DNA from: Tenacibaculum pacificus
GTDB lineage: Bacteria; Bacteroidota; Bacteroidia; Flavobacteriales; Flavobacteriaceae
DNA: 64,000 bases
Direction: 5' to 3'
Assembly: GCF_027941775.1 (NCBI RefSeq)
Contig: NZ_CP115917.1
Span: 1,873,001-1,937,000 of the forward strand
Below the pieces are notes generated by a model. The model worked only from the letters and a program-made list of their open reading frames with translations, did not search any database and had not been told where the DNA came from. Numbering within the stretch: the stretch's first letter is position 1; each line of letters begins with the position of its first letter. The translations under genes and the position numbers were made by a program. Of this stretch, positions 265-63,851 are shown one piece after another.

Positions 265-388
265 AACAACATATATAATTCATTGCTCATTTATTTTCCT
301 GCGGAAAATACTCGCAAATGTAGATGTTTGAGTTTTTTAAACTATATTAGTTGCTCAAAACACGCAACAAACCATATATAAAACCGTT
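265..388 (+). repeat. attC-like site 1 (class III)
   Basis: 124 bp from AAC to GTT. Structural arms ATATATAATT.. and ..CATATATAAAACC pair. The cassette to the left ends TTTAGCAAC. Its start is outside the window, but the sister cassette at 30127 starts GTTGCTAAA, which pairs. Confidence 0.8.
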
Positions 389-404
389 GTGCGTAATTTA
401 AGAA

Positions 405-1136
405 ATGATTCTACCATTAAATTCACATATTAGAAATCCACCTACAATTTTGTTACCAAAACAAGTTGTTTCTTTTAATGCAATAAGATATAGTTTGGAT
501 ATTTGTCAATTATCACACGAAAGACTGATAAAAAAACTCTCTGAACAAACCGAAAATAAAGATATTGAACCACTCGATTTTCCAGAAATATTTTCAGATG
601 TGTGGTCTATAGTTAATAATGCTCAAATGTTCGGGAAAATTATTTGTCGTGAATTTGGAATAAGTAAAACTGAACCTAAACTGTCTGAAATTATCAAAGC
701 AATTGATTTTAGAAACTCGAATCAACATTTTGAGGAACGAATTTCTCAAGTTTTATCTGTTGAGGATTTGCCTGTATATGGATTTTTGAGCTGGAGAAAA
801 AATTATCTTGGAACTGACGAAATAATATTATCGACAATTTATTCGGGAACATTTACAAATAAATCAAATGTAAGTATGTCAATCTCTAACGAAACTCAAA
901 CTGAATCTAATGAAATTATACAGAAGATTGAGTTTTCTAATGTGGTAAGAGAAAAAGACAAATCAGGAAAATGGGAATTTAATGAACGTAAAATATCAGT
1001 CAGTAAGCTGATTTCCGATTTGAAAAGTTGGATTGACCACTTTGACGAACAAATAAATGAACAGATTGATAAAATGGAAAATTTAGAAAAGCATACATCG
1101 GATTTAATAATCCAAATAAAAGGAAAATTAATATAA
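405..1136 (+). CDS. hypothetical protein, 243 aa
   Basis: Sole gene of its cassette. It starts at the first ATG, 16 nt after the GTT of the preceding site, and stops shortly before the next site. I do not recognise the family. The sequence is soluble-looking, with no signal peptide or membrane segment. The last ~45 residues are a predicted helix rich in E, K, I and Q (DEQINEQIDKMENLEK), likely a short coiled coil. The middle holds a beta-rich stretch (YSGTFTNKSNVSMSIS). The short AT-rich leader has no recognisable promoter, as expected for cassette genes. Confidence 0.75.
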   Translation: MILPLNSHIRNPPTILLPKQVVSFNAIRYSLDICQLSHERLIKKLSEQTENKDIEPLDFPEIFSDVWSIVNNAQMFGKIICREFGISKTEPKLSEIIKAIDFRNSNQHFEERISQVLSVEDLPVYGFLSWRKNYLGTDEIILSTIYSGTFTNKSNVSMSISNETQTESNEIIQKIEFSNVVREKDKSGKWEFNERKISVSKLISDLKSWIDHFDEQINEQIDKMENLEKHTSDLIIQIKGKLI

Positions 1137-1147
1137 AAACTACGCAC

Positions 1148-1272
1148 AACACTGTATATAATTTATTACTAGTACTAGCCTACTTACGAAAATCCTTGGG
1201 GGATTTTCTATTACGCTTTTATTTACTAAATTAGTTGCTCGAAATACGCAACAAATAATATACAAAAACGTT
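1148..1272 (+). repeat. attC-like site 2 (class I)
   Basis: 125 bp. The cassette ends TACGCACAAC, a perfect 10-bp complement of its own start GTTGTGCGTA at 386-395. Confidence 0.9.
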
Positions 1273-1758
1273 GGGTTTCATTAGCGGAAATCGTTAAAAT
1301 TTGAAAATTTAGTTTTTAAATAAAATTTAAAATAGCTCGAAAAATATTTAGAAAAAAGCTTCTTTAATTACCTCAGGAAATCGCACAAAAAATCATTTTG
1401 AAAATTATAGTTTTTTAAGAATATTTTTTACATTTTGAAAAATTCTAATTGAAAACTGTTGTGTGAAAAGTCATTTTAAAAACTATAGTTTTTTTAATAA
1501 TATTTTTTGCATTTTGAAAAATTCTGATTGAAAACTGTTGTGTGAAAATAGAAACGTGAAATGAAAGAGTTTTAAAATAAAATTCTACATTATTTTACTT
1601 TTTGAAAAATTTTTAAAAATATGAAAAATCGGAATTGAAGCTAAAAACGTGAAAATTAAAACCGTAGAATTAAAAACTTTGAGAAAAATAATTACTGTAA
1701 AATATGAGAATTTAAAAAATAGGTAGAAGAAAATACAAAAACTATAAAACGAAAACCC
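1273..1758 (+). repeat. non-coding cassette, family B
   Basis: Starts GGGTTTCATTAGCGG, with no credible ORF. Contains ~79-bp repeats marked by CTGTTGTGTGAAAA (near 1456 and 1535) and TTTTGAAAAATTCT. Other members are at 12652, 33221, 49800 and 57878. Confidence 0.8.
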
Positions 1759-1882
1759 AACAGCGTGCATAGTTCATTGCTTATTGATTTTCTTGCAGAA
1801 AATCCTCCCGCGTGTTAAAGTTCTCGTTTTTTAAACTATATTAGTGCTATGTTTTCGCAACGAAACCGTACACAAAAACGTT
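1759..1882 (+). repeat. attC-like site 3 (class II)
   Basis: 124 bp. The left flank GAAAACCCAAC pairs with the cassette start GTTGGGTTTC. Inner arms GTGCATAGTTCATTGC and GCAACGAAACCGTACAC. Confidence 0.88.
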
Positions 1883-2219
1883 GCAATTAATGGCGGAATT
1901 TCAGCCAGAAATTCCTAATTAGTGATTTATCTTTTCTAGAAATTAATATTGAAAAATATTGCGCTAGAAAAATTGAAAATGACTTCTACTCTATTTTTAG
2001 AAAATGAATCCTAAAAAAGAGAAAAAAAGAATTGAACGCTGAAAAATGAATCGTGAATAAATAGGCGGAAATTAATTAAGGCGGAGTTTTAAGCTGAAAC
2101 GTGAAAAAAAGGCAGAAGTTAACGCTGAAAATAAAGCGTGAAAAAAAAAAGAAAGAGAAATAAAACGGAAAAATTGAAAATTAAAAAACGAGAAATATAG
2201 TTAGAAAATCACTAATTGC
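1883..2219 (+). repeat. non-coding cassette, family C (GCAATTA subtype)
   Basis: Starts GCAATTAATGGCGG and carries the family hairpin GGAATTTC-AGCCA-GAAATTCC. No ORF. Differs from 46868-47205 by a single A in a homopolymer. Confidence 0.8.
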
Positions 2220-2343
2220 AACACCATATATAATTTATTGCTTGTGATTAACTACTTACGAAAATCCTTAGGGATTTTCTATTCCGTTTTTATTTACTAA
2301 ATTAGTTGCTCGAAAAACGCAACAAACCATATATAAAAACGTT
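2220..2343 (+). repeat. attC-like site 4 (class I')
   Basis: 124 bp. Left flank TAATTGCAAC, a perfect complement of the cassette start GTTGCAATTA. Confidence 0.88.
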
Positions 2344-2669
2344 GCCAAAAACTCGGAAAAATAAAATGCTGAAAACCAATATTACGGAATAAAAAAAGTG
2401 GAATTGACATTTTACTTAAATTGAATAATTTAGAATTTATTCAAATTTCAGAATATTATAAAGGCTGAAAATAAATATCGCGGAATTTAAAACGTGGAAT
2501 TAAAGTTTTACTCAAATTGAATAGTTTAGAAAATATTGAAAATTTGGAGGATTATAAAAACTGAAAATAAATATTACGGAATTAAAAAATGCTGAATTAT
2601 GTTTTATTCAAATTAAATAATTTAGAAAATATTGAAAATTTAGAATTTAAACAAAAAGTCGCATTTGGC
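2344..2669 (+). repeat. non-coding cassette, family A
   Basis: Starts GCCAAAAACTCGGAAAAATA. About three ~97-bp degenerate units, no gene. A small open frame that runs from it into the next site is not believed. Confidence 0.75.
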
Positions 2670-2793
2670 AACAACATATATAATTCATTGCTCATTTATT
2701 TTCCTGCGGAAAATACTCGCAAATGTAGATGTTTGAGTTTTTTAAACTATATTAGTAACTTGAAATACGCAACAAACCATATATAAAACCGTT
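2670..2793 (+). repeat. attC-like site 5 (class III)
   Basis: 124 bp. Left flank TTTGGCAAC pairs with the cassette start GTTGCCAAA. Confidence 0.88.
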
Positions 2794-2803
2794 GCCATTA
2801 ATT

Positions 2804-3577
2804 TTGAAAAAAACAGCATATTTAGATAATAATATTTTAATTGACATTGAACAAGGTTTAATTTCAATAGACGATTTGCGGAATAATATTGACGAAAATA
2901 TAACTGAATTTTATTATTCGTCCGCACATTTACAAGAAGCTAATGAAATGACTGCCAAAACGGACGTGGAACTCAAAAATCGACTTGAGAAGCGCTTTGC
3001 TACTATTAGCTTAGTCACAAATAATAATTATATAACTCAAGAATTACCATCTAATAAGGTATTTAGTCAAATTGAAAATCCCAAAACAGTTTATAATACA
3101 ATTAAGGATGTCACATCTACTCAAAGCGCAATTAAAGCGATGTTAAATACAATCAGCGAAGAACAGAAAAATGATTTTAGAGAAAGAATGGAAATTGACT
3201 CTAAACTGATGAACAATTACTCACCAAAAGAAGTTATCGAGCAAGTAAATACCCGAAGCGAAGCTCTAGGCGGATTATCACTTGTTGGTATGATTGAAAA
3301 TGGAGTTAATCTTCATCCGCAAGGAAAAGAAATGGGAATGGGAAATAGATTTGCAGGTGTTTTTGAATTATTAGACTTAATAGGATATTGGAAAGACAAA
3401 TATAATTCAAAATCAAATTACGCCAGACTTTGGGATGCAAGTCATAGTTTTTATTCATCATATTTTGACTATTTTGTATCGGATGACAAAAGAACAAGAA
3501 ATAAAGCCAAAGTTGCATTTGAAATTTATGGTGCTAAAACACAAGTAGTTTCATCAAAAGACACAAAAAAAAAATAA
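2804..3577 (+). CDS. PIN-domain-like protein, 257 aa
   Basis: The N-terminus YLDNNILIDI, then FYYSSAHLQEA near residue 40, then a C-terminal WDASHSFYSSYFDYFVSDD followed by RTRNKA, match the layout of PIN nucleases: acidic residues of the N-terminal D, middle E and C-terminal D-x-x-x-D region. The family is metal-dependent RNases such as VapC. At ~257 aa it is longer than a typical VapC (~130 aa). No antitoxin gene accompanies it, so it may be a stand-alone RNase or effector. No ATG is available. TTG at 2804 gives the natural KKTAYLDNN start; TTG at 2792 lies inside the site. The stop overlaps the cassette-end complement. Confidence 0.7.
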   Translation: MKKTAYLDNNILIDIEQGLISIDDLRNNIDENITEFYYSSAHLQEANEMTAKTDVELKNRLEKRFATISLVTNNNYITQELPSNKVFSQIENPKTVYNTIKDVTSTQSAIKAMLNTISEEQKNDFRERMEIDSKLMNNYSPKEVIEQVNTRSEALGGLSLVGMIENGVNLHPQGKEMGMGNRFAGVFELLDLIGYWKDKYNSKSNYARLWDASHSFYSSYFDYFVSDDKRTRNKAKVAFEIYGAKTQVVSSKDTKKK

Positions 3578-3581
3578 TGGC

Positions 3582-3707
3582 AACACCGTATATAATTTAT
3601 TGCTAGTTCTAGCCTACTTACGAAAATCCTTAGGGGGATTTTCTATTCCGCTTTTATTTACTAACTTTAGTGCTTGAAATACGCAACAAATAATATACAA
3701 AAACGTT
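3582..3707 (+). repeat. attC-like site 6 (class I)
   Basis: 126 bp. Left flank TAATGGCAAC, a perfect complement of the cassette start GTTGCCATTA. The TAA stop of the PIN gene lies in this flank. Confidence 0.9.
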
Positions 3708-4095
3708 GCAAGTAATGGCGGAATTTCCTCAGAAATTCCTAATTAGTGATTTATCTTTTCTAGAAATTAATATTGAATAATATTGCGCTGGAAAAATTGA
3801 AAATGACTGCTACTCTATTTTTAGAAAATGAATCCTAAAAAAGAGAAAAAAACAGAATTGAACTCTGAAAAATGAATCGTGAATAAATAGGCGGAAATTA
3901 ATTAAGGCGGAGTTTTAAGCTGAAACGTGAAAAAAGGCAGAATTTAACGCTGAAAATAAATCGTGAATAAATAAGCGGAAATTAATTAAGGCGGAGTTTT
4001 AAGCTAAAACGTGAAAAAAGAAGGAAAAATAAAACAGAAGAATTTTAAATAGAAAATTAAGAAATGAGAAATATAGTTAGAAAATCACTACTTGC
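3708..4095 (+). repeat. non-coding cassette, family C
   Basis: Starts GCAAGTAATGGCGG. Hairpin GGAATTTC-CTCA-GAAATTCC at 3720-3739. Two ~83-bp repeats around GCGTGAATAAATAGGCGG-like segments. No ORF. Confidence 0.8.
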
Positions 4096-4220
4096 AACAC
4101 CATATATAATTCATTGCTTGTGATTAACTACTCGCGAAAATCCTTTACGGATTTTCTATTCCGTTTTTATTTACTAAATTAGTTGCTCGAAATACGCAAC
4201 AAACCATATACAACAACGTT
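4096..4220 (+). repeat. attC-like site 7 (class I')
   Basis: 125 bp. Left flank TACTTGCAAC pairs with the cassette start GTTGCAAGTA. Confidence 0.88.
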
Positions 4221-4594
4221 GCAAGTAATGGCGGAATTCCCTCAGAAATTTCTAATTAGTTATTTATCTTTTCTAGAAATTAATATTGAATAATATTACG
4301 CTGGAAAAATTGAAAATGACTTCTACTCTATTTTTAGAAAATGAATCCTAAAAAAGAGGAAAACAGAATTAACTCTGAAAAATGAAGCGTGAATAAATAG
4401 GCAGAAATTAATTAAAGCGGAGTTTTAAGCAGAAACGTGAAAAAAGCAGAAGTTAACGCTGAAAATAAAGCGTAAATAAATAGGTGGAAATTAATTAAGG
4501 CGGAGTCTTAAGTAGAAACGTAAAAAAAAGAGAAATAAAACGGGAAAATTGAAAATTAATAAATGAGAAATTTAGTTAGAAAATCACTACTTGC
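4221..4594 (+). repeat. non-coding cassette, family C
   Basis: Same family start. Same length as 49301-49674, with one substitution noticed near position 100, so it is a recent duplicate 45 kb away. No ORF. Confidence 0.8.
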
Positions 4595-4719
4595 AACAAC
4601 ATATATAATTTATTCCTAGTGCTTATCTACTTACGAAAATCCTTAGGGGATTTTCTATTCCGTTTTTATTTAATATATTTAGAACTTGAAATACGCAACA
4701 AATCATATATAAAACCGTT
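4595..4719 (+). repeat. attC-like site 8 (class I)
   Basis: 125 bp. Left flank TACTTGCAAC pairs with the cassette start GTTGCAAGTA. The next cassette begins TTAGGCTTA. Confidence 0.88.
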
Positions 4720-4736
4720 AGGCTTAATTTAAAAAA

Positions 4737-6017
4737 ATGGAAGAAAAATTACAAAATTTGTGTGACTCTTTAGATGATTTATCACAAGCTATTTTAAATG
4801 GTTGGAGTGATGATAAAACTCTTAGTACACATTGGGGTTGGAACTTCCCTAACCTAAGTCGACACGATTTAGCGAACATCCCTAAGAATATTTCATCAGA
4901 TATAAAAAAATTGAACATCACTCAATTAGATGAAGAATTTGCAATACAAATAGATAGTATTCCTGAAAAAATTGAAGAATTTAAAACAAAAACGCTTGTT
5001 TACTTTTATAATGGACATGGAAATCAAGCTGTTCCAGTATTTATATCATTAATGGAGTGGGTAAAATCAACTTTAACACCTATAAATAGTTGGGAGGTAC
5101 TGTACGATTTAAAAGCAATGCCAACAAAATTATCAAAAAGATTAACTTCAATACAAAGTCAGTTATCTGATATAATCCCAGAAAAGGAAAAACTTGAAGA
5201 TAAAATTAAATTAATTACAGAAGCTAATGAAGCTGCTGAATCTTTACCAACAGATTTAGCAGCCTTAAAAAAAGCTAGAAAAATAATTACAGATTTAACA
5301 AATACTGCTAGCGAAAATAAAGGATTAATAGATTCACATTTAAAAAATATAATTAAAACTGTTGAATCTATTAATTTAAAGAAAATTGAAACAGATAAGT
5401 TAGTTGATAAATGTGAAGAAGCATATAAGATTACTACAACCAAAGGGCTTGCAGCTGCTTTTGATGAAAGAGCTAAAAAATCTCAAAGTTCAATGTATTT
5501 ATGGGTTTTTGCTTTATTACTAGCCTTAGGTTCTGCAATATGGATTGGTTCGATTAGGTTTGAAACTTTACTTAATGCGTTAAACTCTACAAATCCTGTT
5601 TGGGGTATAATATGGATGAATTGTTTATTAGCTATCCTAAGTTTAACAGCCCCATTGTGGTTTGCTTGGATTTCCACAAAACAAATTAATCAACGTTTTA
5701 GGTTAGCAGAAGATTATAGCTTTAAGGCATCAGTTGCAAAAGCCTATGAAGGTTATAGAAAAGAAGCTTCTAGAATAGACCCAGCTTTTGAAGCTCGATT
5801 ATTTAGTTCTGCACTAACAAGACTTGAAGAAGCTCCCCTCCGATTAATGGAGAGCCACTCACATGGAAGCCCGTGGCGTGAATTAATTACTTCTCCACAA
5901 TTTGAAAAAGCTATTAATAAAATTCCTGAATTAAAAGATAAATTTATCGAAGTTACAGGAAATATTATTAAAATTACTCCAAGTAAAAATGGAGTGAAAA
6001 AAATAACAGAAGAATAA
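4737..6017 (+). CDS. coiled-coil membrane protein, 426 aa
   Basis: Starts at ATG 17 nt after the site. The N-terminal half is soluble, and residues ~130-245 form long charged helices with coiled-coil character. Two membrane segments follow (about 249-272 and 285-312), joined by a short loop. The C-terminal ~110 residues are predicted cytoplasmic, with a conserved-looking SFKASVAKAYEGYRKEA and a RLEEAPLRLMESHSHGSPW stretch. I do not know the function. The layout (sensor or coiled coil, two-TM hairpin, cytoplasmic tail) is seen in some abortive-infection and stress membrane proteins, but that is only analogy. Codon use and base composition match neighbouring cassette genes. Confidence 0.75.
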   Translation: MEEKLQNLCDSLDDLSQAILNGWSDDKTLSTHWGWNFPNLSRHDLANIPKNISSDIKKLNITQLDEEFAIQIDSIPEKIEEFKTKTLVYFYNGHGNQAVPVFISLMEWVKSTLTPINSWEVLYDLKAMPTKLSKRLTSIQSQLSDIIPEKEKLEDKIKLITEANEAAESLPTDLAALKKARKIITDLTNTASENKGLIDSHLKNIIKTVESINLKKIETDKLVDKCEEAYKITTTKGLAAAFDERAKKSQSSMYLWVFALLLALGSAIWIGSIRFETLLNALNSTNPVWGIIWMNCLLAILSLTAPLWFAWISTKQINQRFRLAEDYSFKASVAKAYEGYRKEASRIDPAFEARLFSSALTRLEEAPLRLMESHSHGSPWRELITSPQFEKAINKIPELKDKFIEVTGNIIKITPSKNGVKKITEE

Positions 6018-6027
6018 AACTAAGCCT

Positions 6028-6152
6028 AACAACGTATATAATTTATTACTAGTACTCGCCTACCTACGAAAATCATTAGGGGATTTTCTATTCCGCTTTT
6101 ATTTACTAAATTAGTTGCTCGAAATACGCAACAAATAATATACAAAAACGTT
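6028..6152 (+). repeat. attC-like site 9 (class I)
   Basis: 125 bp. Left flank TAAGCCTAAC, a perfect complement of the cassette start GTTAGGCTTA. One of the few sites that also fits the canonical RYYYAAC/GTTRRRY consensus. Confidence 0.92.
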
Positions 6153-6609
6153 GCAAGTAATGGCGGAATTCCCTCAGAAATTTCTAATTAGTGATTTATC
6201 TTTTCTAGAAATTAATATTGAATAATATTACGCTGGAAAAATTGAAAATGACTGCTACTCTATTTTTAGAAAATGAATCCTAAAAAAGAAGAAAACAGAA
6301 TTAACGCTGAAAAATGAAGCGTGAATAAATAGGCGGAAATTAATTAAAGCGGAGTTTTAAGCAGAAACGTGAAAAAAGCAGAAGTTAACGCTGAAAATAA
6401 AGCGTGAATAAATAGGCGGAAATTAATTAAAGTGGAGTTTTAAGCAGAAATGTGAAAAAAGCAGAAGTTAACGCTGAAAATAAAGTGTGAATAAATAGGT
6501 GGAAATTAATTAAGGCGGAGTTTTAAGTAGAAACGTAAAAAAAAGAGAAATAAAACGGGAAAATTGAAAATTAAGAAATGAGAAATTTAGTTAGAAAATC
6601 ACTACTTGC
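6153..6609 (+). repeat. non-coding cassette, family C, three 83-bp units
   Basis: GTGAATAAAT recurs at 6321, 6404 and 6487, an exact 83-bp period. Same length as 51472-51928 and identical as far as I compared. No ORF. Confidence 0.82.
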
Positions 6610-6734
6610 AACAACATATATAATTTATTGCTAGTGCTTATCTACTTACGAAAATCCTTAGGGGATTTTCTATTCCGTTTTTATTTAATATATTTAGAAC
6701 TTGAAACACGCAACAAACCATATACAAATCCGTT
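6610..6734 (+). repeat. attC-like site 10 (class I)
   Basis: 125 bp. Left flank TACTTGCAAC pairs with the cassette start GTTGCAAGTA. Confidence 0.88.
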
Positions 6735-7158
6735 GCAAGTAATGGCGGAATTTCCTCAGAAATTCCTAATTAGTGATTTATCTTTTCTAGAAATTAATAT
6801 TGAATAATATTGCACTGGAAAAATTGAAAATGACTTCTACTCTATTTTTAGAAAGTGAATCCTAAAAAAGAGAAAAAAACAGAATTGAACGCTGAAAAAT
6901 GAAGCGTGAATAAATAGGCGGAAATTAATTAAGGCGGAGTTTTAAGCTGAAACGTGAAAAAAGGCTGAATTTAACGCTGAAAATAAATCGTGAATAAATA
7001 GGCGGAAATTAATTAAGGTGGAGTTTTAAGCTGAAACGTGAAAAAAGGCAGAATTTAACGCTGAAAATAAAACGTGAAAAAAGAAGGAAAAATAAAACAG
7101 AAGAATTTTAAATAGAAAATTAAGAAATGAGAAATATAGTTAGAAAATCACTACTTGC
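6735..7158 (+). repeat. non-coding cassette, family C
   Basis: Family start and hairpin, then 83-bp-type units. No ORF. Confidence 0.8.
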
Positions 7159-7282
7159 AACATCATATATAATTCATTGCTTGTGATTAACTACTTACGA
7201 AAATCCTTAAGGATTTTCTATTCCGTTTTTATTTACTAAATTAGTTGCTCGAAATACGCAACAAACCATATATAAAAACGTT
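7159..7282 (+). repeat. attC-like site 11 (class I')
   Basis: 124 bp. Left flank TACTTGCAAC pairs with GTTGCAAGTA. The AACATC variant follows the AAC. Confidence 0.87.
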
Positions 7283-7317
7283 ACCCAACATTAACCACTC
7301 AAAACTGAAAGAAAAAA

Positions 7318-7845
7318 TTGAAAGCTGAATTTATTTATCAACCGACTTCTGGTCAATATGAAGAAAAAACTTTTGACCTAAATACAGTGTGGAAAAGTCA
7401 AATTTGGAGTTGGATAAAATTCACAACAAATAGCGGAATTGAATGGGTTGGAATGTTTCGAGGAGAACCTAAAAAAGTTGCAATTGCGGAAAAAATAAAT
7501 CAGGTTGCAATTTTGACAAGTGACGGATTTTATATATTGGATATTGAGAAAAGAGAAACTCTATTTTTTGACCAACAAACTGAATTTAGAGATTTAGCGG
7601 AAATTCCAACTCAAGATAAATTTATTATTGCGGATTATGACCAAATTGGAATATTTGACAAAAATTATAAAACGGAATTTATAAATCTAGAATTTGGAGT
7701 TGACAATATCGTATTTGGAAAATATAGCGGAATAAAATTAAAGGTAAACTTTGAGAAATTGCCTGATTATGAAATTATAAACGGATTTCTGAATACGGAA
7801 AATTGGAAAATTGGAAAATTGAATCGGAATAAAAACGTTGGGTAA
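7318..7845 (+). CDS. hypothetical protein, 175 aa
   Basis: Only gene of its cassette. There is no ATG in frame; TTG at 7318 gives the fullest frame. The protein is soluble and rich in short beta strands (QVAILTSDGFYILDIE, KFIIADYDQIGIFD), somewhat like a few blades of a beta-propeller. There is no signal peptide. The family is not recognised. The stop codon TAA at 7843-7845 overlaps the AAC that opens the next site, so the recombination site itself supplies the stop. Confidence 0.65.
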   Translation: MKAEFIYQPTSGQYEEKTFDLNTVWKSQIWSWIKFTTNSGIEWVGMFRGEPKKVAIAEKINQVAILTSDGFYILDIEKRETLFFDQQTEFRDLAEIPTQDKFIIADYDQIGIFDKNYKTEFINLEFGVDNIVFGKYSGIKLKVNFEKLPDYEIINGFLNTENWKIGKLNRNKNVG

Positions 7846-7968
7846 CACCGTATATAATTTATTGCTAGTTATAGCCTACTTACGAAAATCCTTAGGGGAT
7901 TTTCTATTCCGCTTTTATTTACTAAATTAGTTGCTTGAAATACGCAACAAATAATATACAAAAACGTT
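7844..7968 (+). repeat. attC-like site 12 (class I)
   Basis: 125 bp. Left flank GTTGGGTAAC, a perfect complement of the cassette start GTTACCCAAC. Confidence 0.9.
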
Positions 7969-7989
7969 GGCAACAATACGAATCAAACC

Positions 7990-55038: not shown

Positions 55039-55050
55039 AAACCAGTGCCT

Positions 55051-55608: not shown

Positions 55609-55733
55609 AACAACATATATAATTTATTGCTAGTGCTTATCTACTTACGAAAATCCTTAGGGGATTTTCTATTCCGTTTTTATTTAATATATTTAGAACT
55701 TGAAATACGCAACAAACCATATATAAAACCGTT
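55609..55733 (+). repeat. attC-like site 56 (class I)
   Basis: 125 bp. Left flank TAATTACAAC, a perfect complement of the cassette start GTTGTAATTA. In family C the left flank changes together with the start. Confidence 0.9.
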
Positions 55734-56157
55734 GCCTACTATAGCGGAAAACACTCAGACGCAATCAATTCGGAATAAAAAATTGAGTTTATATAAAATA
55801 GACTTAAAATAACTCAGAGTTTTCACTCAATCGTGGAAAAAATTACAACAGAATTTCAACAAATTTTGAAAATAAAATTACACCCTAAAATAATTTTCCT
55901 GAATTACTCAATCAGCCAAAAAAAATTACAAGAAAAATTGAGTGATTTTTCGAAATTAAATAACTTTTGAAAAATAGAATTGTACCCTAAAGACTTTCAG
56001 GAATTGCTCACTCAAGCGCGAAAAAAATATAATGGAATTTTAGAAAGTTTATGTAATCAAATCCTAGACTAAAAAAAATTAGACTTGCTAAATCTAACTG
56101 AATTTAAAAACAAACTGAATTAAAATTTACTTAAAAAATGAAAAAACTACAGTAGGC
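55734..56157 (+). other. non-coding cassette, unique
   Basis: Starts GCCTACTATAGCGG. AT-rich with repeated AAAATTGAGT and CACTCAA-type words. No credible ORF; similar words occur at 35198-35493. Confidence 0.6.
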
Positions 56158-56281
56158 AACAACGTATATAATTCATTGCTTAATGATTTTCCTGCGGAAA
56201 ATCCTTGCACACGTAAATGTTTGAGTTTTTTAAACTATATTAGTGCTATGATTTCGCAACGAAATCATATACAAGAACGTT
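56158..56281 (+). repeat. attC-like site 57 (class III)
   Basis: 124 bp. Left flank AGTAGGCAAC, a perfect complement of the cassette start GTTGCCTACT. Confidence 0.9.
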
Positions 56282-56305
56282 ACCATACATTAAAAACCAA
56301 GCCTT

Positions 56306-56566
56306 ATGGAGGAATTTGAAAAAAAATATAAATATCTCAATTATGATAAATTTATGAATGAGATTACAATTAATTATAAAAATTCTTCTAAAGAAAGATT
56401 ATTTGACAAAATACTAACACCAGCAAATTTTGAAAATATAGATTTTGAACAATTAATTAAAATGAAATCCTTATTGAAGACCTTTAATCCTAATGATGAA
56501 AAAGTTAAATTATTACTCAAAACTCGGCTCGAATTAGTACAAAAAGCTCTTAATGCTTTAAAATAA
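56306..56566 (+). CDS. hypothetical helical protein, 86 aa
   Basis: ATG 24 nt after the site with GGAGG just inside the gene. Helical, charged (FEKKYKYLNYDKFMNEITIN), no membrane part. Precedes a small membrane protein in the same cassette by 50 nt; the two could be a pair. Confidence 0.65.
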   Translation: MEEFEKKYKYLNYDKFMNEITINYKNSSKERLFDKILTPANFENIDFEQLIKMKSLLKTFNPNDEKVKLLLKTRLELVQKALNALK

Positions 56567-56616
56567 GAAAATTATATTCGATAAATTTAGGAATTTATTT
56601 AAGAAATTAAACTGAA

Positions 56617-56878
56617 ATGAATGAAGAAGAAAAGATAATATTAATTGATAAAGTTTTACAAGGCTTTAAAAAAAATATTAAATACTGTTCCTGAATTAAT
56701 CGATGGATTTCAAAAATATCCAAGCTATAAATCTGAAAAACTTGAATTCGATAAAAAAATAAGGAATCTTGAAAGTCAATTAAAAGTTACGAATTTAGTA
56801 AAGAACTATTGGTGGATTATAATTACTGCAGTCGGAATTGGCTTTTCGATTTCTGAAATAATAAAAAACGTATGGTAA
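56617..56878 (+). CDS. single-TM protein, frameshifted at A8
   Basis: ATG at 56617 reads MNEEEKIILIDKVLQGFKKN and soon stops. Removing one A from an A8 run (56668-56675) gives a continuous ~86-aa protein: FKKILNTVPELIDGFQKYPS, a charged helix, then a membrane segment (YWWIIITAVGIGFSISEII). The TAA stop overlaps the AAC of the next site. Alternative: a shorter product from TTG 56645. Confidence 0.55.
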
Positions 56879-57001
56879 CACCGTATATAATTTATTGCTA
56901 GTGCTAACCTACTTACGAAAATCCTTAGGGGATTTTCTATTCCGCTTTTATTTACTAAATTAGTTGCTTGAAACACGCAACAAACCATATACAACAACGT
57001 T
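56877..57001 (+). repeat. attC-like site 58 (class I)
   Basis: 125 bp. Left flank GTATGGTAAC, a perfect complement of the cassette start GTTACCATAC. Confidence 0.9.
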
Positions 57002-57050
57002 GGCAATAATAAAAAACCACAAAAAACACCAAATCGGGAACTTTTTTTAT

Positions 57051-57058
57051 TATATTTG
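57051..57058 (+). promoter_or_regulatory. candidate -7 element of higBA
   Basis: TATATTTG fits TAnnTTTG, 20 nt upstream of the toxin GTG. A private promoter is usual for toxin-antitoxin cassettes. No clear -33 TTG. Confidence 0.5.
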
Positions 57059-57078
57059 CATTGTCAAAAAATAAAACT

Positions 57079-57372
57079 GTGAGAATAATATCAAGAAGAA
57101 CACTACGAGAATTTTGGGAAAAACACGCTGATAGTGAACAACAATTAAAAGCTTGGTATCGTGAAACAGAAAAAGCAAATTGGAAAAATATAAATGAATT
57201 AAAAATTGAATATCCTAGCGCTAGTGTTTTAAAAGACAATAGAATAGTTTTCAATATTAAAGGAAATAATTATAGACTCATTGTTAAAATGAATTTTGAA
57301 TTTCAAGTATCTTGGATTCTATTTATTGGAACTCATGCAGAATATGATAAGATTAATGCTAACAAATTATAA
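57079..57372 (+). CDS. higB: HigB-family mRNA interferase toxin, 97 aa
   Basis: RIISRRTLREFWEKHADSEQ, LKAWYRETEKANWKN, IEYPSASVLKDNRIVFNIKG and FIGTHAEYDKINA follow the HigB_toxin (PF09907 type) consensus along the whole length. It is a RelE-fold ribosome-dependent RNase that cleaves mRNA and is held inactive by HigA. GTG at 57079 gives the family's M-R-I-I-S start; TTG 57061 would add six unrelated residues. Toxin-first order, 2-nt gap to the antitoxin. Such pairs stabilise large integrons. Confidence 0.92.
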   Translation: MRIISRRTLREFWEKHADSEQQLKAWYRETEKANWKNINELKIEYPSASVLKDNRIVFNIKGNNYRLIVKMNFEFQVSWILFIGTHAEYDKINANKL

Positions 57373-57374
57373 TT

Positions 57375-57740
57375 ATGCAAATTAAACCTATAAAAAACGA
57401 AACAGATTACCAGGAAGCTCTTAATAGACTTGAATTAATTTTTGAAGCAACAAAAGGAACAAAAAAAGGAGATGAACTTGAAATACTTACTATTCTAATT
57501 GACAAATATGAAAATGAAAATTTTCCAATTGGAATGCCTGATCCTATTGAAGCTATTAAATTCAGAATGGAACAAATGGGAATGAAACAAAAAGATCTTG
57601 CTGAACTTGTTGGTTTTAAAAGTAGAGTAAGTGAAATTTTAAATAAAAAACGAAAACTAACTTTAAAAATGATTAGGAAAATTAGTGATTCGTTACATAT
57701 ACCTACTGATGTCTTAATACAAGAATATATTGTAGAATAA
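57375..57740 (+). CDS. higA: HigA-family antitoxin, 121 aa
   Basis: The N-terminal MQIKPIKNETDYQEALNRLE is the toxin-binding part of long HigA proteins. PIGMPDPIEAIKFRMEQMGM, KQKDLAELVGFKSRVSEILN and KKRKLTLKMIRKISDSL form a Cro/CI-type helix-turn-helix. It neutralises HigB and should repress its own promoter. Confidence 0.92.
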   Translation: MQIKPIKNETDYQEALNRLELIFEATKGTKKGDELEILTILIDKYENENFPIGMPDPIEAIKFRMEQMGMKQKDLAELVGFKSRVSEILNKKRKLTLKMIRKISDSLHIPTDVLIQEYIVE

Positions 57741-57754
57741 AAATTACTATTGCC

Positions 57755-57877
57755 AACAGCGTATATAATTTATTGCTAGTACTCGCCTACTTACGAAAAT
57801 CCTTAGGGATTTTCTATTCCGCTTTTATTTACTAAATTAGTTGCTCGAAATACGCAACAAACCATATACAAACCGTT
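57755..57877 (+). repeat. attC-like site 59 (class I)
   Basis: 123 bp. Left flank TATTGCCAAC, a perfect complement of the cassette start GTTGGCAATA. Confidence 0.9.
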
Positions 57878-58371
57878 GGGTTTCATTAGCGGAAATCGTT
57901 AAAATTTGAAAATTTAGTTTTTAAATAAAATTTAAAAATAGCAGAGAAAATATTTAGAAAAAGCTCCTGTAATTACCTCAGGAAATCGCACAAAAAATCA
58001 TTTTGAAAATTATAGTTTTTTAAGAATGTTTTTTACATTTTGAAAAATTCTAATTGAAAATTGTTGTGTGAAAATAGAAATATAAAATGAGAGAATTTTA
58101 AAATCAAATTTTACATTTTCTATATTTTGAAAAATTATAGTTCAAAACTGTTGTGTGAAAATAGAAACGTGAAATGAAAGAGTTTTAAAATCAAATTTTA
58201 CATTTTCTACATTTTGAAAAATTTTAGAAAATATGAAAAATAGAAATTGAAGCTCAAAGCGTGAAAATTAAAACCGTAGAATTAAAAACTTTGAGAAAAA
58301 TAATTACTGTAAAATATGAGAATTTAAAAAATAGGTAGAAAAAAAATACAAAAACTATAAAACGAAAACCC
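57878..58371 (+). repeat. non-coding cassette, family B
   Basis: Near-identical to 33221-33714 and followed by the same class II site. No ORF. Confidence 0.82.
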
Positions 58372-58495
58372 AACAGCGTGCATAGTTCATTGCTTGTTGA
58401 TTTTCTTGCAGAAAATCCTCGCGCACGTTGAAGTTTTAGTTTTTTAAACTATATTAGTACTGTAATTCCGCAACGAAACCACGCACAAATACGTT
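58372..58495 (+). repeat. attC-like site 60 (class II)
   Basis: 124 bp. Left flank AAAACCCAAC pairs with GTTGGGTTT. Confidence 0.88.
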
Positions 58496-58916
58496 ATGTT
58501 TAACGGCGGAATTTCCTCAGAAATTCCTAATGAGTATTTTATGAGTTCTAAAAAATAAATTGACATAATTATACGCCGAAAAAAAAGACTCAAACAGCTA
58601 AAAATGGAAATAACTTCTTCCCTATTTTAAGAGAAAATTGAAACTAGAAAAGTCATTTAAGACAATTTAGAAATAAAATGAAAAATTCAAGAATCATTTA
58701 AAACTGAATGTCGAAACGTGAAAATATCTCTGGAGAAAAAAGGTTTTAGCAAAACAGCGCGAATATCAAGCTGAAAAGTAAAACGGGAAATTTAAGTACT
58801 AGAACTGGAAAAATTAATTAAGAAAAATTAAAAGACGAAAATTGAGCTTTAAAACGTGAAAATATAGAATAAAATTTAAGTAGAATGATTATTTAGAACT
58901 CAAAACCGATAAACAT
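58496..58916 (+). repeat. non-coding cassette, family D
   Basis: Near-copy of 12106-12525. Shared hairpin near the start. No ORF. Confidence 0.82.
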
Positions 58917-59043
58917 AACATCGTATATAATTTATTGCTAGTTTTTAAATATTTATGAAAAGCTTTTTTTAGAATTTTATATTTCGATTTTATTAACTAA
59001 ATTAGTTGCTTGAAATACGCAACAAATCATATACAAAAACGTT
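58917..59043 (+). repeat. attC-like site 61 (class IV)
   Basis: 127 bp. Left flank TAAACATAAC, a perfect complement of GTTATGTTTA. IS copy 6 begins 18 nt downstream. Confidence 0.88.
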
Positions 59044-59112
59044 ATGCACAAGCTGAAAAAATGTAAAATCCTGAAATAGGTTGACTAAAATTTAAACACT
59101 TTTAGTTAAACT

Positions 59113-59505
59113 ATGGACACAAAGACAAAACTACCCTGCCGAAAAAAGAACTACAATAAAGTAGGTTTTGAACTCAAATTATTCATCATTGACCAAATTC
59201 ATAATGGACGTATTTCTGTTAATTACGCCGCTAAAAAATACGATATTTCTAGAGCTACAATTCAGTACTGGATCAAAAAATATAGTACTTTTGAACAAAA
59301 AAAATTAAGCATGAGTAAACAAGATGAAATCAAAAAACTCAAAGAGAAAATTGAAGAACTAGAATTTGTAAAAGATTTTCAACAAGATATTATCGCTGAT
59401 ATGGAAATCATTACTGGTGTCGATATGTCAAAAAAGTCATTGCCCAAAACATTAGCAGAAGAGATTCAAAAAAAGAAGCAAAACCGTTTAAAAGAAAATG
59501 GTTAA
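59113..59505 (+). CDS. IS3-family transposase OrfA (copy 6)
   Basis: 130 aa with SM before SKQDE, the same as copy 1. Confidence 0.92.
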   Translation: MDTKTKLPCRKKNYNKVGFELKLFIIDQIHNGRISVNYAAKKYDISRATIQYWIKKYSTFEQKKLSMSKQDEIKKLKEKIEELEFVKDFQQDIIADMEIITGVDMSKKSLPKTLAEEIQKKKQNRLKENG

Positions 59506-60368
59506 TTCAATGTTTTGGGATTAGTAAACAGGCCTTTTACAAACGATTAAAATCTTATCAAATAAAGCAAAATAACGAACTTATATTAACACAATTAGTC
59601 AAACAATGTCGTGATAGAATTGGTCAGAAATTAGGGGCTAAAAAACTATATCATCAATTAAAAATTGATATCGATAAAAAAGGAATAAAAATAGGGCGAG
59701 ACAAGTTCTATAATTTCTTAAGAAGCCATAGATTACTAGTACCTAGAACAAAAAACTATCATATTACAACGAATTCTAAACATCATTTTTATAAGTATAA
59801 AAACCTTGTATCAAACAAAATCCCGACAAGAGCGGAACAACTTTGGGTAACAGATATTACCTATATAAAAACAGAAAAAGGTCATAATTATTTAGCTTTA
59901 GTAACAGATGCATATTCTAAGAAAATAATGGGGTATAAATTAGACACACATATGAGAACATCGCTTTGTATAGATGCACTCAAAATGGCTATCAAAAATC
60001 GAAAATATCCGAATGAAAAACTAATTCATCATTCAGATAGAGGACTACAATATTGCAATCCGACTTATACCCTATTTGCTGAAAAAAATGGTTTAATTAT
60101 GAGTATGACTGAAAAATATGATCCATATGAAAATGCTATCGCTGAAAGAATTAATAGAACTTTAAAATATGAATATGGTTTGAAACTAACAATTAAAAAC
60201 ACTATTTTAGCAAAGAAAATTACAAAAAGTGCTATTAATATTTATAACAACCTTCGTCCACATTTAAGTCTCGATTTAAATACTCCTAAGAAGGTTCATA
60301 TAAATCAAAATATCGAATATAAATCATATCGAAGAAATAAAAAAAATCTGGAATTATTAACCTTATAA
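59469..60368 (+). CDS. IS3-family transposase OrfB (copy 6)
   Basis: Intact DDE frame after the A7 run at 59468. Confidence 0.92.
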   Translation, partial: KKEAKPFKRKWLIQCFGISKQAFYKRLKSYQIKQNNELILTQLVKQCRDRIGQKLGAKKLYHQLKIDIDKKGIKIGRDKFYNFLRSHRLLVPRTKNYHITTNSKHHFYKYKNLVSNKIPTRAEQLWVTDITYIKTEKGHNYLALVTDAYSKKIMGYKLDTHMRTSLCIDALKMAIKNRKYPNEKLIHHSDRGLQYCNPTYTLFAEKNGLIMSMTEKYDPYENAIAERINRTLKYEYGLKLTIKNTILAKKITKSAINIYNNLRPHLSLDLNTPKKVHINQNIEYKSYRRNKKNLELLTL

Positions 60369-60411
60369 ATTCAAAAAAAAAGGTCAACCTATTTCAGGAC
60401 AATACAAAACA

Positions 60412-61110
60412 TTGAGATATTACATTGGAGCATATTATTTGATTAAACTTCGAAAGTCTAAATTTGGAACTTATGAAGGAAAGGAGTTGCATACTTGCAG
60501 CACTTGCATCAATGATTCATATTTTGACGCTTGGTCTATTTCTTGGACAGAAAACGGAAAAATAATTAGTCAAGAAACTAAAACGGATTTTAATCTTGAC
60601 GAAAATCTAATTGAAAGAATTCAAAAATGGTCTGACCAAAAATTTGAGGAAAATAAAATTGGCTGGATTTGTACTTTTTCGGACTTAAAAACTCTGACTG
60701 AATATAAACAATCTTTCTTTCCAGAGGTCGAGGCTGAAATCTTGAGTGTAAACTTTCCCGAAACTGAAAAAGGAGAATTTTTAAAACTATTCAATCCCGA
60801 AAAGTCAAGTTATGGAGAAATCGGACTTTCTAAAAACCTAAAAAATGGAATTATTGAAAGTAAAACTGAAAAGACACTCGGATTTGACCTTATTGGAATT
60901 GAATCAAGTGGCGAATTTCATAGTTTTCATTGTCACGATTTGGCAAGTGATTTAATAGAAAAGTTCGGAATCGAAATAAACGAATTTGGACTGATTAAGG
61001 AAAATGACAATTGGAATCAAATGGTTGAATATATGAATGACGAAAAAAACGGATTTGAACCAACACCTTGGTTTTATGTTAAAATAAAAAAAGTTAAAGC
61101 CAGTGCATAA
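60412..61110 (+). CDS. hypothetical protein, 232 aa
   Basis: No in-frame ATG near the start; TTG at 60412, just after the IS target site, gives RYYIGAYYLIKL. In the cassette before insertion the same TTG lay ~24 nt after the site, so the IS did not remove the start. Soluble alpha/beta protein with CSTCIN near residue 30 and FHSFHCHDLASDLIEKFGIE near 170. Unknown family; the style resembles immunity proteins. The TAA stop (61108-61110) overlaps the AAC of the next site. Confidence 0.68.
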   Translation: MRYYIGAYYLIKLRKSKFGTYEGKELHTCSTCINDSYFDAWSISWTENGKIISQETKTDFNLDENLIERIQKWSDQKFEENKIGWICTFSDLKTLTEYKQSFFPEVEAEILSVNFPETEKGEFLKLFNPEKSSYGEIGLSKNLKNGIIESKTEKTLGFDLIGIESSGEFHSFHCHDLASDLIEKFGIEINEFGLIKENDNWNQMVEYMNDEKNGFEPTPWFYVKIKKVKASA

Positions 61111-61233
61111 CACCGTATAAAAAAAATTGCTAGTTTTAGCTAAACCAAAGTTAGTTGCTCGTTTGCTAGCTTCTGATTTTCCTTCGGAAAATCCTCGCAC
61201 ACAAACACGCAACTTTCCTTATACATAAACGTT
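61109..61233 (+). repeat. attC-like site 62 (class V)
   Basis: 125 bp. Left flank GTGCATAAC pairs with the cassette start GTTATGCAC across IS copy 6. Arms GTATAAAAAAAATTGC with GCAACTTTCCTTATAC; inner GATTTTCC-TTC-GGAAAATC. Confidence 0.88.
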
Positions 61234-61696
61234 GTGTCTAATGGCGGAATTTCCTCAGAAATTCCTAATGAGTATTTTATAAACCAAAAATTAAGCGGAC
61301 ACAAACTCTAGACAAAAAACACTAAAAACTGAAAAAGACTTCTACTCCATTAAAATAAAAAATTGAAATGTGAAAAAATCAGCGCAGAAAAAATTATTTT
61401 AATAAAATAGCTGAATACAAATAGAAACGTAAAAAACTGAGCAAATAGGTGGAATTAAGCTCTGAAGCGCAAAAAATCGTTGATATTAAAAAGTCATTAT
61501 GAAAATTCATAAATAAATTGAAAAACTTAAGCTTTTAATAAAATTAATGAATTGAAAGTTGAAACGTAAAAAAATCGGCGGAATTAAACTCTGAAATCAA
61601 AAAAGCTCATTAAAACGAAAATGGAATTATAAATAAATTGAAAAATTTGAATTTCTAATAAAATTAATGAACTAAAATGAAAAAACCACTAAACAC
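61234..61696 (+). repeat. non-coding cassette, family E
   Basis: Third member of the family, close to 13224 and 13800. Shared hairpin near 61248. No ORF. Confidence 0.8.
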
Positions 61697-61822
61697 AACA
61701 ACGTATATAATTTATTGCTAGTTTTTAAATATTTATGAAAAGCTTTTTTTAAATTTTATATTTCGATTTTATTTACTAAATTAGTTGCTCGAAATACGCA
61801 ACAAATCATATACAAGAACGTT
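61697..61822 (+). repeat. attC-like site 63 (class IV)
   Basis: 126 bp. Left flank TAAACACAAC pairs with GTTGTGTCTA with one mismatch. Confidence 0.87.
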
Positions 61823-62241
61823 GCCAAAAACTCGGAAAAATAAAATGCTGAAAACCAATATTACGGAATAAAAAAGTGGAATTGACATTTTACTTAAATT
61901 GAATAATTTAGAATTTATTCAAATTTCAGAATATTATAAAGGCTGAAAATAAATATCGCGGAATTTAAAACGTGGAATTAAAGTTTTACTCAAATTGAAT
62001 AGTTTAGAAAATATTGAAAATTTGGAGGATTATAAAAACTGAAAATAAATATCGCAGAATTTAAAATGTGGAATTAAAGTTTTACTCAAATTGAATAGTT
62101 TAGAAAATATTGAAAATTTAGAGGATTATAAAAACTGAAAATAAATATCACGGAATGAAAACAAAGAATTGAAATTTCACTTAAATTGAATAATTTAAAA
62201 ATATTGAAAATTTAGAATTTAAACAAAAAGTCGCATTTGGC
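61823..62241 (+). repeat. non-coding cassette, family A
   Basis: Starts GCCAAAAACTCGG. Four ~97-bp units, close to 20519-20880. No ORF. Confidence 0.8.
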
Positions 62242-62365
62242 AACAACATATATAATTCATTGCTCATTTATTTTCCTGCGGAAAATACTCGCAAATGTAG
62301 ATGTTTGAGTTTTTTAAACTATATTAGTAACTTGAAATACGCAACAAACCATATATAAAACCGTT
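62242..62365 (+). repeat. attC-like site 64 (class III)
   Basis: 124 bp. Left flank TTTGGCAAC pairs with GTTGCCAAA. Confidence 0.87.
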
Positions 62366-62374
62366 GCCCGTAAT

Positions 62375-63715
62375 ATGAATAAAATTAATCGAAATCTATT
62401 TAATATATATCTTTTATTCACTAGAGAACCCTTTTCTAGAACATACATAAATGAACTTGAATTCTTCTCAAATGGAGACAATACTATAATTGGTCTCGTA
62501 AGTTTAGATTTAATTGACAATGACTTTAGTGGAGTCGTTTTATCAAGAGATCAATCCAAGCAATACAGAGCCGAAAACGTTATTACTTGTTTAAGCACAT
62601 TAGAAGAAGCAAGACAATGGGTTCAAAAAGAGATGAGTTCTGACAAAATTATTATTCATGATAATAAATCTAGTTTTTTTGACTTGTTCAATACAATAAC
62701 AAAAGAAAATCAGATTCATCCTTATTATAATTCATTAAAAAACGATGAAGCTTTTAGTGGTTCAAAAGATGTTATCAAAGAAATTTCATATCATTATAAG
62801 GATATAGATGGTAATTTTATTGAACAATTTCAATCCTTAAATGGTTTTGACGCTAGACTCTGGGAGTTATATCTTTTTTGTCTTTGTAGAGAAGAAGGTT
62901 TTTCTTTCAAGAGAAACAAACATGCACCTGACTTTATTATTGAAAAATTCAATGAAATAATTGCAATAGAAGCTGTAACAATAAGTCGTGATTCAAGTAA
63001 AAAGATTGATATTAAAAACTTTGAACCTAAAAGTAAAGAAGAAACTACAGAACTCCTTAAAGACGAAATGCCTCTGAAATTTGGAAGTGCTTTATTCTCA
63101 AAATTAAAAAAGAAATATTGGGAACTTGAACACGTTAATGGAAAACCTTTTCTAATAGCTATTGCTGATTTTCACGACACAATGTCAATGACTTGGTCTT
63201 TTCCTGCATTAATCACTTATTTATATGGCTATAATTATGAAGCGAAACATGATAAGAATGGAAAGCTAGTAATTACTCCAATTAAAATAACAGAATTTGT
63301 TAAAAAAACTGGAGCAAAAATCCCTGCTGGATTCTTCAATCAACCAGATTCTGAAAACATAAGTGCAATATTATTTTCTTCCACAGCAACAGTCTCAAAA
63401 TTTAACAGAATGGGAAAACAAGCGGGATTAGGTTCTGAGAAATTATCAATAATTAGAATGGGAGCTAAACATAACTTTGACGAAAACTCTTCTGAATCAA
63501 TACCGTTTATTAATCATATAAATGAGGAATGCAATGAACTATGGTCAGAGGGAGTTTCAATATTTCACAACCCCAATGCTATTATTCCTTTAAAAAAGGA
63601 ACTATTTCCATCTGTAGCTCATCATTTTTTTAAAGACGAAAATATCTCAAGTATATTTCCTGATTTTTTTCCATATTTTTCTATGAATCAAAACATCGTT
63701 TCTGTAGACAAATAA
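62375..63715 (+). CDS. possible PD-(D/E)XK-fold protein, 446 aa
   Basis: ATG 9 nt after the site. Residues ~165-210 read FDARLWELYLFCLCREEGFS, then KRNKHAPDFIIEKFNEIIAI and EAVTISRD. The order of a helix with conserved E (WELYL), APDF (Asp) and IAIEAVT (Glu) is that of PD-(D/E)XK nucleases, though the usual Lys after E is V here. A later part has KPFLIAIADFHDTMSMTWSF. The first ~150 residues are a separate alpha/beta domain. Possibly a restriction-type defence protein; no methylase or partner is in the cassette. Confidence 0.68.
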   Translation: MNKINRNLFNIYLLFTREPFSRTYINELEFFSNGDNTIIGLVSLDLIDNDFSGVVLSRDQSKQYRAENVITCLSTLEEARQWVQKEMSSDKIIIHDNKSSFFDLFNTITKENQIHPYYNSLKNDEAFSGSKDVIKEISYHYKDIDGNFIEQFQSLNGFDARLWELYLFCLCREEGFSFKRNKHAPDFIIEKFNEIIAIEAVTISRDSSKKIDIKNFEPKSKEETTELLKDEMPLKFGSALFSKLKKKYWELEHVNGKPFLIAIADFHDTMSMTWSFPALITYLYGYNYEAKHDKNGKLVITPIKITEFVKKTGAKIPAGFFNQPDSENISAILFSSTATVSKFNRMGKQAGLGSEKLSIIRMGAKHNFDENSSESIPFINHINEECNELWSEGVSIFHNPNAIIPLKKELFPSVAHHFFKDENISSIFPDFFPYFSMNQNIVSVDK

Positions 63716-63725
63716 TACTACGGGC

Positions 63726-63851
63726 AACACCGTATATAATTTATTGCTGGCTTTTTGCATACTTACGAAAGTCCTCGCGGACTTTCTTGGTCGGTAATTA
63801 TTTATTAAATTAGTTGCTTGAAACACGCAACAAACCATATACAACAACGTT
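63726..63851 (+). repeat. attC-like site 65 (class I variant)
   Basis: 126 bp. Left flank TACGGGCAAC, a perfect complement of the cassette start GTTGCCCGTA. Inner hairpin GAAAGTCC-TCGC-GGACTTTC. IS copy 7 begins 17 nt downstream. Confidence 0.9.

Follow-up and report, generated by a model that had tools for sequence, protein, structure and literature searches.

A cassette array of superintegron scale and its linked tyrosine recombinase in Tenacibaculum pacificus

Integrons are known above all for their part in the spread of antibiotic resistance. The 64,000-nucleotide stretch of Tenacibaculum pacificus DNA analysed here (called the window below; positions 1873001-1937000 of a genome that consists of a single contig of 2,791,743 bases) carries 65 sites that resemble the attC sites of integron cassettes, and thus raises the question of which kind of system moves the units between them. 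Comparison of sequences leads us to the answer that a tyrosine recombinase encoded at the start of the array, which is devoid of the insertion found in the integron integrase IntI, likely captures single cassettes at these sites, excises them and changes their order, in an integron-like manner. In coordinates and comparisons the genome of the window is referred to as G000.

The array and its recombinase

The sites extend from 265 to 63851 of the window, all of them on the + strand, and 65 of 65 open with AAC and close with GTT, as the earlier note on this DNA had described them. A profile search found 62 of them (122-128 bp), and three, two long ones and a divergent one, were placed by hand from their ends. 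In window coordinates, the profile sites lie at 265..388, 1148..1272, 1759..1882, 2220..2343, 2670..2793, 3582..3707, 4096..4220, 4595..4719, 6028..6152, 6610..6734, 7159..7282, 7844..7968, 9472..9598, 10189..10312, 11006..11131, 11981..12105, 12526..12651, 13100..13223, 13676..13799, 14262..14387, 14812..14935, 15823..15947, 16334..16457, 17014..17138, 19900..20022, 20394..20518 and 21033..21156. They are followed by a hand-placed long site of 183 bp at 23768..23950, for which the ends of both neighbouring units are complementary, and by profile sites at 24834..24957, 25498..25622, 26183..26306, 26988..27112, 29015..29138 (a weak match), 30002..30126, 30630..30753, 33098..33220, 33715..33838, 34722..34845 and 35494..35619. 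The second hand-placed long site (189 bp) is found at 41441..41629, with profile sites at 42214..42338, 42787..42910 and 44830..44954 behind it, and the divergent site, placed from its ends, at 45536..45657. The remaining profile sites lie at 46275..46399, 46744..46867, 47206..47329, 47776..47900, 49177..49300, 49675..49799, 50290..50413, 51347..51471, 51929..52053, 54076..54200, 55051..55173, 55609..55733, 56158..56281, 56877..57001, 57755..57877, 58372..58495, 58917..59043, 61109..61233, 61697..61822, 62242..62365 and 63726..63851. No match at the Rfam gathering score was found within the window.

The window (1..64000, + strand) is the middle part of a larger array located at 1780905-1957283 of the genome. 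In the 244 kb around the window, the site profile gave 141 matches between these limits, all on the + strand and 137 of them full length; three of the 65 sites in the window are not among the 141. The four partial matches, two of which are the halves of one site split by a likely prophage, were excluded, and the other 137 were used for the pairing of ends described below. When a covariance model was run on the whole genome, 150 candidates were scored and 139 matches obtained, all on the + strand and all inside 1780905-1957283. With about 140 sites across about 176 kb (6% of the genome), the array has the superintegron scale that had been proposed from the window alone.

The single direction that characterises integron cassette arrays is also found here, with 139 of 139 sites on the + strand. 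The longest open reading frame (ORF) of at least 80 amino acids lies on the + strand in 66 of 135 array units and on the - strand in two, and 67 have none (units above 9 kb excluded); for the 62 units that start in the window these numbers are 29, one and 32, and in both counts some of the + units owe their ORF to an inserted insertion sequence (IS) element. The statement in the earlier note that all credible genes lie on one strand thus nearly holds, and the note did not mention that half of the units are gene-less. In 44 of the 66 units the start codon of the ORF follows the GTT of the site at a distance of 2-71 nucleotides. The core consensus of integron attC sites is not followed, since GTTRRRY is present in 19 and RYYYAAC in 17 of the 137 sites.

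A tyrosine recombinase of 397 amino acids is encoded at 1778906-1780099 on the + strand, in the same direction as the array, 0.8 kb before its first site and 92.9 kb to the left of the window. It was found when the flanking contig was examined, and the absence of any linked recombinase gene, which the earlier note had named as a result that would speak against its reading, is therefore not observed. The best curated model for the protein is XerA (NF040815), with 220 bits at the cut-off. On the integron-integrase model it reaches 193.9 bits in two stretches (cut-off 265), whereas IntI1 of R388, used as positive control, reaches 507.5 bits in one stretch. The match to the structure of Vibrio IntI4 (PDB 2a3v) is broken around the insertion, where positions 288-302 of the query face 188-247 of the chain. 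When 99 recombinases are aligned, the spacing between the box-II R and the histidine of the HxLRH motif is 58-63 residues in all 35 array-linked recombinases (linked by site model R1 or R2, a few of them through weak site matches), 100-101 in the seven rows of the IntI clade including IntI1, and 56-66 in the 57 others. The array-linked recombinases (35 of 35) are without the IntI insertion of about 42 residues in the patch III region.

A tree of 100 rows, built with a quick method and supported by the Shimodaira-Hasegawa-like approximate likelihood ratio test (SH-aLRT) rather than by bootstrap, places the IntI clade (seven rows, SH-aLRT 98) apart from the clade of the window recombinase (23 rows, SH-aLRT 100). 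The broken recombinase frames of the loci L057 and L023 were left out of the tree and of the attI counts given below. The predicted structure (mean predicted local distance difference test score 84, predicted template modelling score 0.55) shows an additional N-terminal strand-helix domain of about 80 residues with no Pfam match; among solved structures the closest folds are those of XerA and an archaeal Xer, followed by IntI4. Seven of the 120 homologues listed carry the NCBI title 'site-specific tyrosine recombinase/integron integrase', which is the generic title of the XerA model. Of the integron reading in the earlier note, the part that concerns an integron-like array with a linked recombinase stands; that it is an integron of the known kind is not supported, as the recombinase has no IntI insertion and falls outside the IntI clade, and the GTTRRRY consensus is rare.

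The link between recombinase and sites recurs in relatives. A recombinase match at E<=1e-40 was found in 190 of 299 genomes of the Flavobacteriaceae; the wider list of matches from this search also includes shorter IS91-associated recombinases and does not serve as a count of this recombinase family. From these 190 we chose 20 relatives, mostly closed genomes, and analysed up to 20 kb from the recombinase onward: sites at E<=0.001 were present downstream of the recombinase in 18 of 20, and all 196 site matches at E<=1 lay on the strand of the recombinase; at one of the loci, L057, the recombinase frame is broken. Twenty more stretches, which for the most part continue these arrays, added 166 matches in 13, every one of them on the strand of the array. 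Eighty named loci with flanks of up to 10 kb to either side gave 38 site matches, of which 36 were located downstream and on the same strand, and a broader site model added 26 matches in 11 of 73 loci, all downstream except one each in L101 and L109. Neither model found a site in 39 non-Bacteroidota loci with other tyrosine recombinases. Twelve closed genomes were searched over their full length, and two of them, G113 and G157, showed an intact recombinase, a dense adjoining array and further clusters elsewhere. Sites are widespread in the Flavobacteriaceae, with at least one site at E<=1e-4 in 243 of the 299 genomes (own genome included; the number of matches per genome was capped).

Between the stop codon of the recombinase gene and the first cassette lies an attI-like motif, ATATAA[CT]NNGTT, often in the right arm of an inverted repeat. 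Among 45 loci whose recombinase is at least 41% identical, 38 have it within 260 nucleotides past the stop codon, whereas it is present in none of 43 windows upstream and in 5 of 1077 others; the motif was selected after part of the 45 loci had been seen.

Sites were also observed on plasmids of Tenacibaculum finnmarkense, four on L169 (CP116298.1) and two on L170 (CP116296.1), with scores of 110-129 bits. A gene for a tyrosine recombinase adjoins them, and in L170 this gene has an IS91-family transposase gene as its neighbour. Such plasmids could be a route by which cassettes travel. Searches of phage sequences gave no matches, neither for a 301-base stretch holding one site in 50,697 phage records nor for a 25-base site pattern in viral contigs. 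Site model R2 matched neither 33 kb of R388 with its class 1 integron nor Polaribacter phage P12002L, for which the accessible part of PMC9892861 reports attC sites.

Cassette ends, site structure and movement of units

The ends of the units show a pairing pattern that is specific to each cassette. In 59 of 64 window units, the six base pairs following one GTT are the reverse complement of the six preceding the next AAC, and at least five of six end bases are complementary in 63 of 64; by chance, six of six were seen in 113 of 4161 non-adjacent end pairs (counted before one start was shifted by a base). For the whole array, at least six exact complementary bases counted from the first were found in 116 of 136 consecutive units, with a mean of 1.17 complementary bases for the two flanks of one site and of 1.05 for other pairs, 3.2% of which reached at least six. 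The sequence itself is variable, with 53 different hexamers among 80 distinct units (units above 6 kb or with fewer than five of six matches having been excluded beforehand). Position 1 is a purine in 79 of the 80, position 8 is an A in 80 of 80 and never paired, and pairing resumes at positions 9-10 (84-86%).

Where homologous cassettes carry different hexamers, both ends have changed at nine of nine differing positions, which represent few independent events (units above 4 kb excluded). For instance, the hexamer of one cassette is GTAAGT in G113 and GTGGTT in Algibacter onchidii, the change being present on both ends. This is the pattern that would be expected if the ends pair with each other in a circular cassette or in a folded site.

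The stems within the sites covary as well. We counted 49 cells with double changes, compared with 9.5 in shuffled alignments and 2-13 when the alignment was slid, and for 144 distinct sites of relatives 351 compared with 93.5 after shuffling, in an alignment that was fitted to the structure. Thus, like the sites of integrons, those described here are conserved more in their folded structure than in their sequence, as judged by stem covariation in both alignments. In the predicted folds the bottom strand was lower in energy in five of five sites.

Single units appear to have moved within the array. Twenty-three cassette families recur at scattered places and account for 63 of 136 units and 68 copy pairs. 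On the left side, the two copies of a pair always have at least CGTT in common, and in 19 pairs nothing more than that; on the right, the common sequence stops directly past GTT in 33 and continues for 24 bases at most. Judged by the family lists, the following cassette belonged to the same family in none of the 68 pairs, and two adjacent cassettes recur in reversed order within the array.

Between genera, 11 matches of at least 85% identity over 250 bp were found among the stretches compared. Four of them are matches of G113 to three cassettes of Algibacter onchidii; each contains one site, and in the Algibacter locus neither of its ends is more than 16 bp away from a GTT. The remaining matches end at a site on one or both sides, or consist of common gene bodies only. 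The earlier note had named units fixed in their order among sister strains as a result that would refute it; in a comparison made without a same-species sister strain, single cassettes were found in differing order and in other genera.

These observations suggest a mechanism in which the linked recombinase would do the work. The sites would be read as folded single strands, since complementary ends specific to each cassette and compensated changes are more readily explained by pairing than by a fixed sequence to which a protein binds. The exchange would fall within CGTT, and new cassettes would enter at the attI-like motif next to the recombinase gene.

Points against, alternative explanations and known systems

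Several observations weigh against this mechanism. That the system recombines at all is something we infer from sequence, and other factors of the cell could carry out the exchange. The attI-like motif is present in none of the 67 loci with a recombinase of less than 41% identity, some of which have arrays (L064-L066). L059 encodes a close recombinase and has no site with either model, and L052 has only weak sites; upstream matches were found in L097 (two, on the other strand), L101 (one) and L109 (one, weak). In G131, which belongs to the same genus, the recombinase is intact and the whole genome has only 14 sites, two of them within 20 kb behind the gene, and some genomes have sites although they lack a good recombinase. 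The predicted single-strand folds are modest, with z values of -0.5 to -3.3 for five sites, and the between-genus match of L156 and L088 lies more than 2 kb from any site. Finally, sites do not always travel with their genes, since one cassette is common to G000 (1942664-1943614) and G121 (L065:5899-6849) with 96% identity in its gene and 77% in its site; the recombinase of G121 is 39% identical to that of the window array.

The G000 site of this shared cassette is 95% like the other sites of its own array and 77% like the G121 site, and for this reason the sites look homogenised within a host. An independent exchange of gene bodies and sites within the own genome was ruled out, as pairs with genes of at least 95% identity have sites of at least 93% (units above 3 kb excluded), which leaves the case between genera as the only one. 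L056 was part of the same comparison of genes and sites, and most of its site seems lost.

Two genomes without a good recombinase show how such sites are distributed. G171 has 29 sites, and among the 11 listed none is less than 50 kb from another; G071 has 25 sites with one pair 0.7 kb apart. Possibly, these sites are remnants or secondary insertions.

As an alternative, another enzyme might move the cassettes, either XerC/XerD or the tyrosine recombinase of IS91-type elements, and the linked recombinase would only resolve or regulate. The genome does encode two further Xer-sized recombinases (295 and 305 amino acids), and genes for a tyrosine recombinase and an IS91 transposase stand beside the plasmid sites described above. 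However, the 39 non-Bacteroidota loci with other tyrosine recombinases were devoid of sites, whereas 18 of the 20 chosen relatives have sites behind the linked recombinase, and we therefore consider this alternative unlikely. The known properties of these enzymes can be compared as well. XerC/XerD dimer resolution uses a single dif site per chromosome and no array, unlike the 139 sites in one array here. The IS91-type recombinase (TnpF-like) resembles the linked recombinase in that it has no insertion and lies beside sites on plasmids, and it is 32-33% identical to it (IntI1: 32%; TnpF: up to about 44% over the core), but it has about 300 amino acids, no N-terminal domain and an adjoining gene for an IS91-family transposase.

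It is improbable, slightly more so than the involvement of another enzyme, that the locus represents an integron of the ordinary type that has lost its IntI or has it elsewhere (a cluster of attC sites lacking integron-integrases, CALIN), in which case a true IntI would have built the array and the linked recombinase would be a bystander. Site length, the AAC and GTT ends and the paired cassette ends do resemble attC. Bacteroidota are listed among the integron-bearing phyla in the accessible parts of PMC8618304 and PMC9668308, and the part of PMC9024848 that is accessible describes one complete integron in Salinibacter ruber. However, integron-integrase matches at E<=1e-40 were found in none of 60 genomes of the family including the own genome, which is a weak argument since none of 14 control genomes matched either. 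Also against this reading are the scores of 507.5 bits for IntI1 and 193.9 bits in two stretches for the window recombinase, the recurrence of the linked recombinase beside arrays in 18 of 20 chosen relatives, and the presence of GTTRRRY in just 19 of 137 sites. Alternatively, the array might be static, its palindromic repeats having multiplied through homologous recombination or the activity of IS elements, for which the 16 near-complete IS3-type copies in the stretch and the gene-less half of the units could be cited. This was rejected as barely conceivable because in none of the 68 copy pairs does the same unit come after both copies, and in addition units match between genera singly and unit ends covary.

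The preferred reading thus remains that the linked recombinase handles single cassettes in the manner of an integron, and the array can be likened to the Vibrio-type superintegron with its familiar features. Both have a recombinase beside an attI or attI-like motif, a long one-way array, sites near 125 bp with AAC and GTT, complementary cassette ends, ORFs that begin at the start of the cassette, and defence cargo. Unlike the superintegron, the system described here has a recombinase without the IntI insertion that lies outside the IntI clade and is oriented in the same way as the array; GTTRRRY is rare, the complementarity of the ends covers 6-7 bp followed by the never-paired A at position 8, and half of the cassettes are ORF-less. 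XerA-type recombinases (NF040815; PDB 5hxy and 4a8e) are the best match of the linked recombinase in sequence and fold, but differ from it in that the linked recombinase has the extra N-terminal domain of about 80 residues and adjoins a cassette array.

In the literature searched, reports of integrons in Bacteroidetes are few: according to the accessible part of PMC9024848, only an integrase without cassettes was known earlier, and a complete integron was then reported in Salinibacter ruber with IntegronFinder 2.0. As far as the accessible text of PMC10013915 goes, this commonly used tool found a Tenacibaculum genome to be free of integrons. The papers listed by the literature searches, which covered no preprints and few subscription papers, hold no description of such arrays, and one may be in print. 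The accessible parts of PMC8138268 and PMC9668308 hold the IntI-specific insertion to be necessary for integron function.

The system appears to work like an integron and is not an integron by the usual definition; it is not filed as one because its recombinase has no insertion of the kind held necessary and its sites depart from the core consensus. It is likely that this group of Bacteroidota runs its own version of the integron, since its recombinase is without the part that integron enzymes are said to need. Whether the integron was even invented twice we consider evenly balanced. In that case an XerA-like recombinase without the insertion would have come to read hairpin sites and to bank up to 140 units, in the Flavobacteriaceae and beyond, with a private self-complementary code of 6-7 bp at the unit ends and with gene bodies that can swap their site on a change of host.

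If the reading is true, cassette capture at hairpin sites arose or persists without the IntI insertion, and a system of superintegron size without it would be a direct test of the purpose of the insertion. In addition, the Bacteroidota would hold a large unread reservoir of mobile genes, including defence genes.

Cargo and inserted elements

Few of the window proteins scanned have a recognisable family: a Pfam scan of 30, including two encoded by IS elements, left 22 with no family above the cut-off, and the PADLOC scan covered 20 window proteins. A cassette on the + strand at 17201..19520 encodes a protein like type II restriction enzymes (82.5 bits) together with a C-5 cytosine methylase. 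The PD-T7-1 anti-phage protein (568.7 bits) is encoded at 62375..63715 (+), and a helix-turn-helix protein at 57375..57740 (+) resembles the first 120 of 402 positions of PD-Lambda-2_B. Since the cargo includes anti-phage genes, the array is likely a store of accessory and defence functions. Other cassettes on the + strand encode an S41 peptidase (47933..49165) or several genes, as the one at 35936..41199 with a TonB-dependent receptor, two small ORFs and a PepSY-TM protein, the ends of which are complementary. Many of the ORF-less cassettes, such as those at 1273-1758 and 4221-4594 of the window, are present as copies, and the largest family of homologous units comprises 20.

To the left of the window, one site is split by a block of roughly 33 kb (1824254-1857216 of the genome), and its two halves flank the block. 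The block encodes a tape measure protein, an S24 repressor-like protein and a protein of 679 amino acids with a weak rve match below the cut-off, and is likely a Mu-like prophage inserted in the site.

A second kind of insertion is an IS3-type element (HTH_Tnp_1 and rve_3), of which 16 near-complete copies are present in the 244-kb stretch, all in one direction. Those in the window lie at 21182-22520, 27138-28474, 30779-32116, 42936-44273, 52305-53640, 59069-60406 and from 63876 onwards. The aligned start of 10 of the 16 copies is located 25-26 bp past the GTT of a called site, and an eleventh has CGTT at that distance; the offset is 18-19 bp if the shared TGTAAAA is counted as the end of the element. 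Related copies are placed alike in G113 and in Zunongwangia mangrovi. Because the copies sit at a like distance behind the sites, also in these two genomes, the IS3-type element likely targets the attC-like sites.

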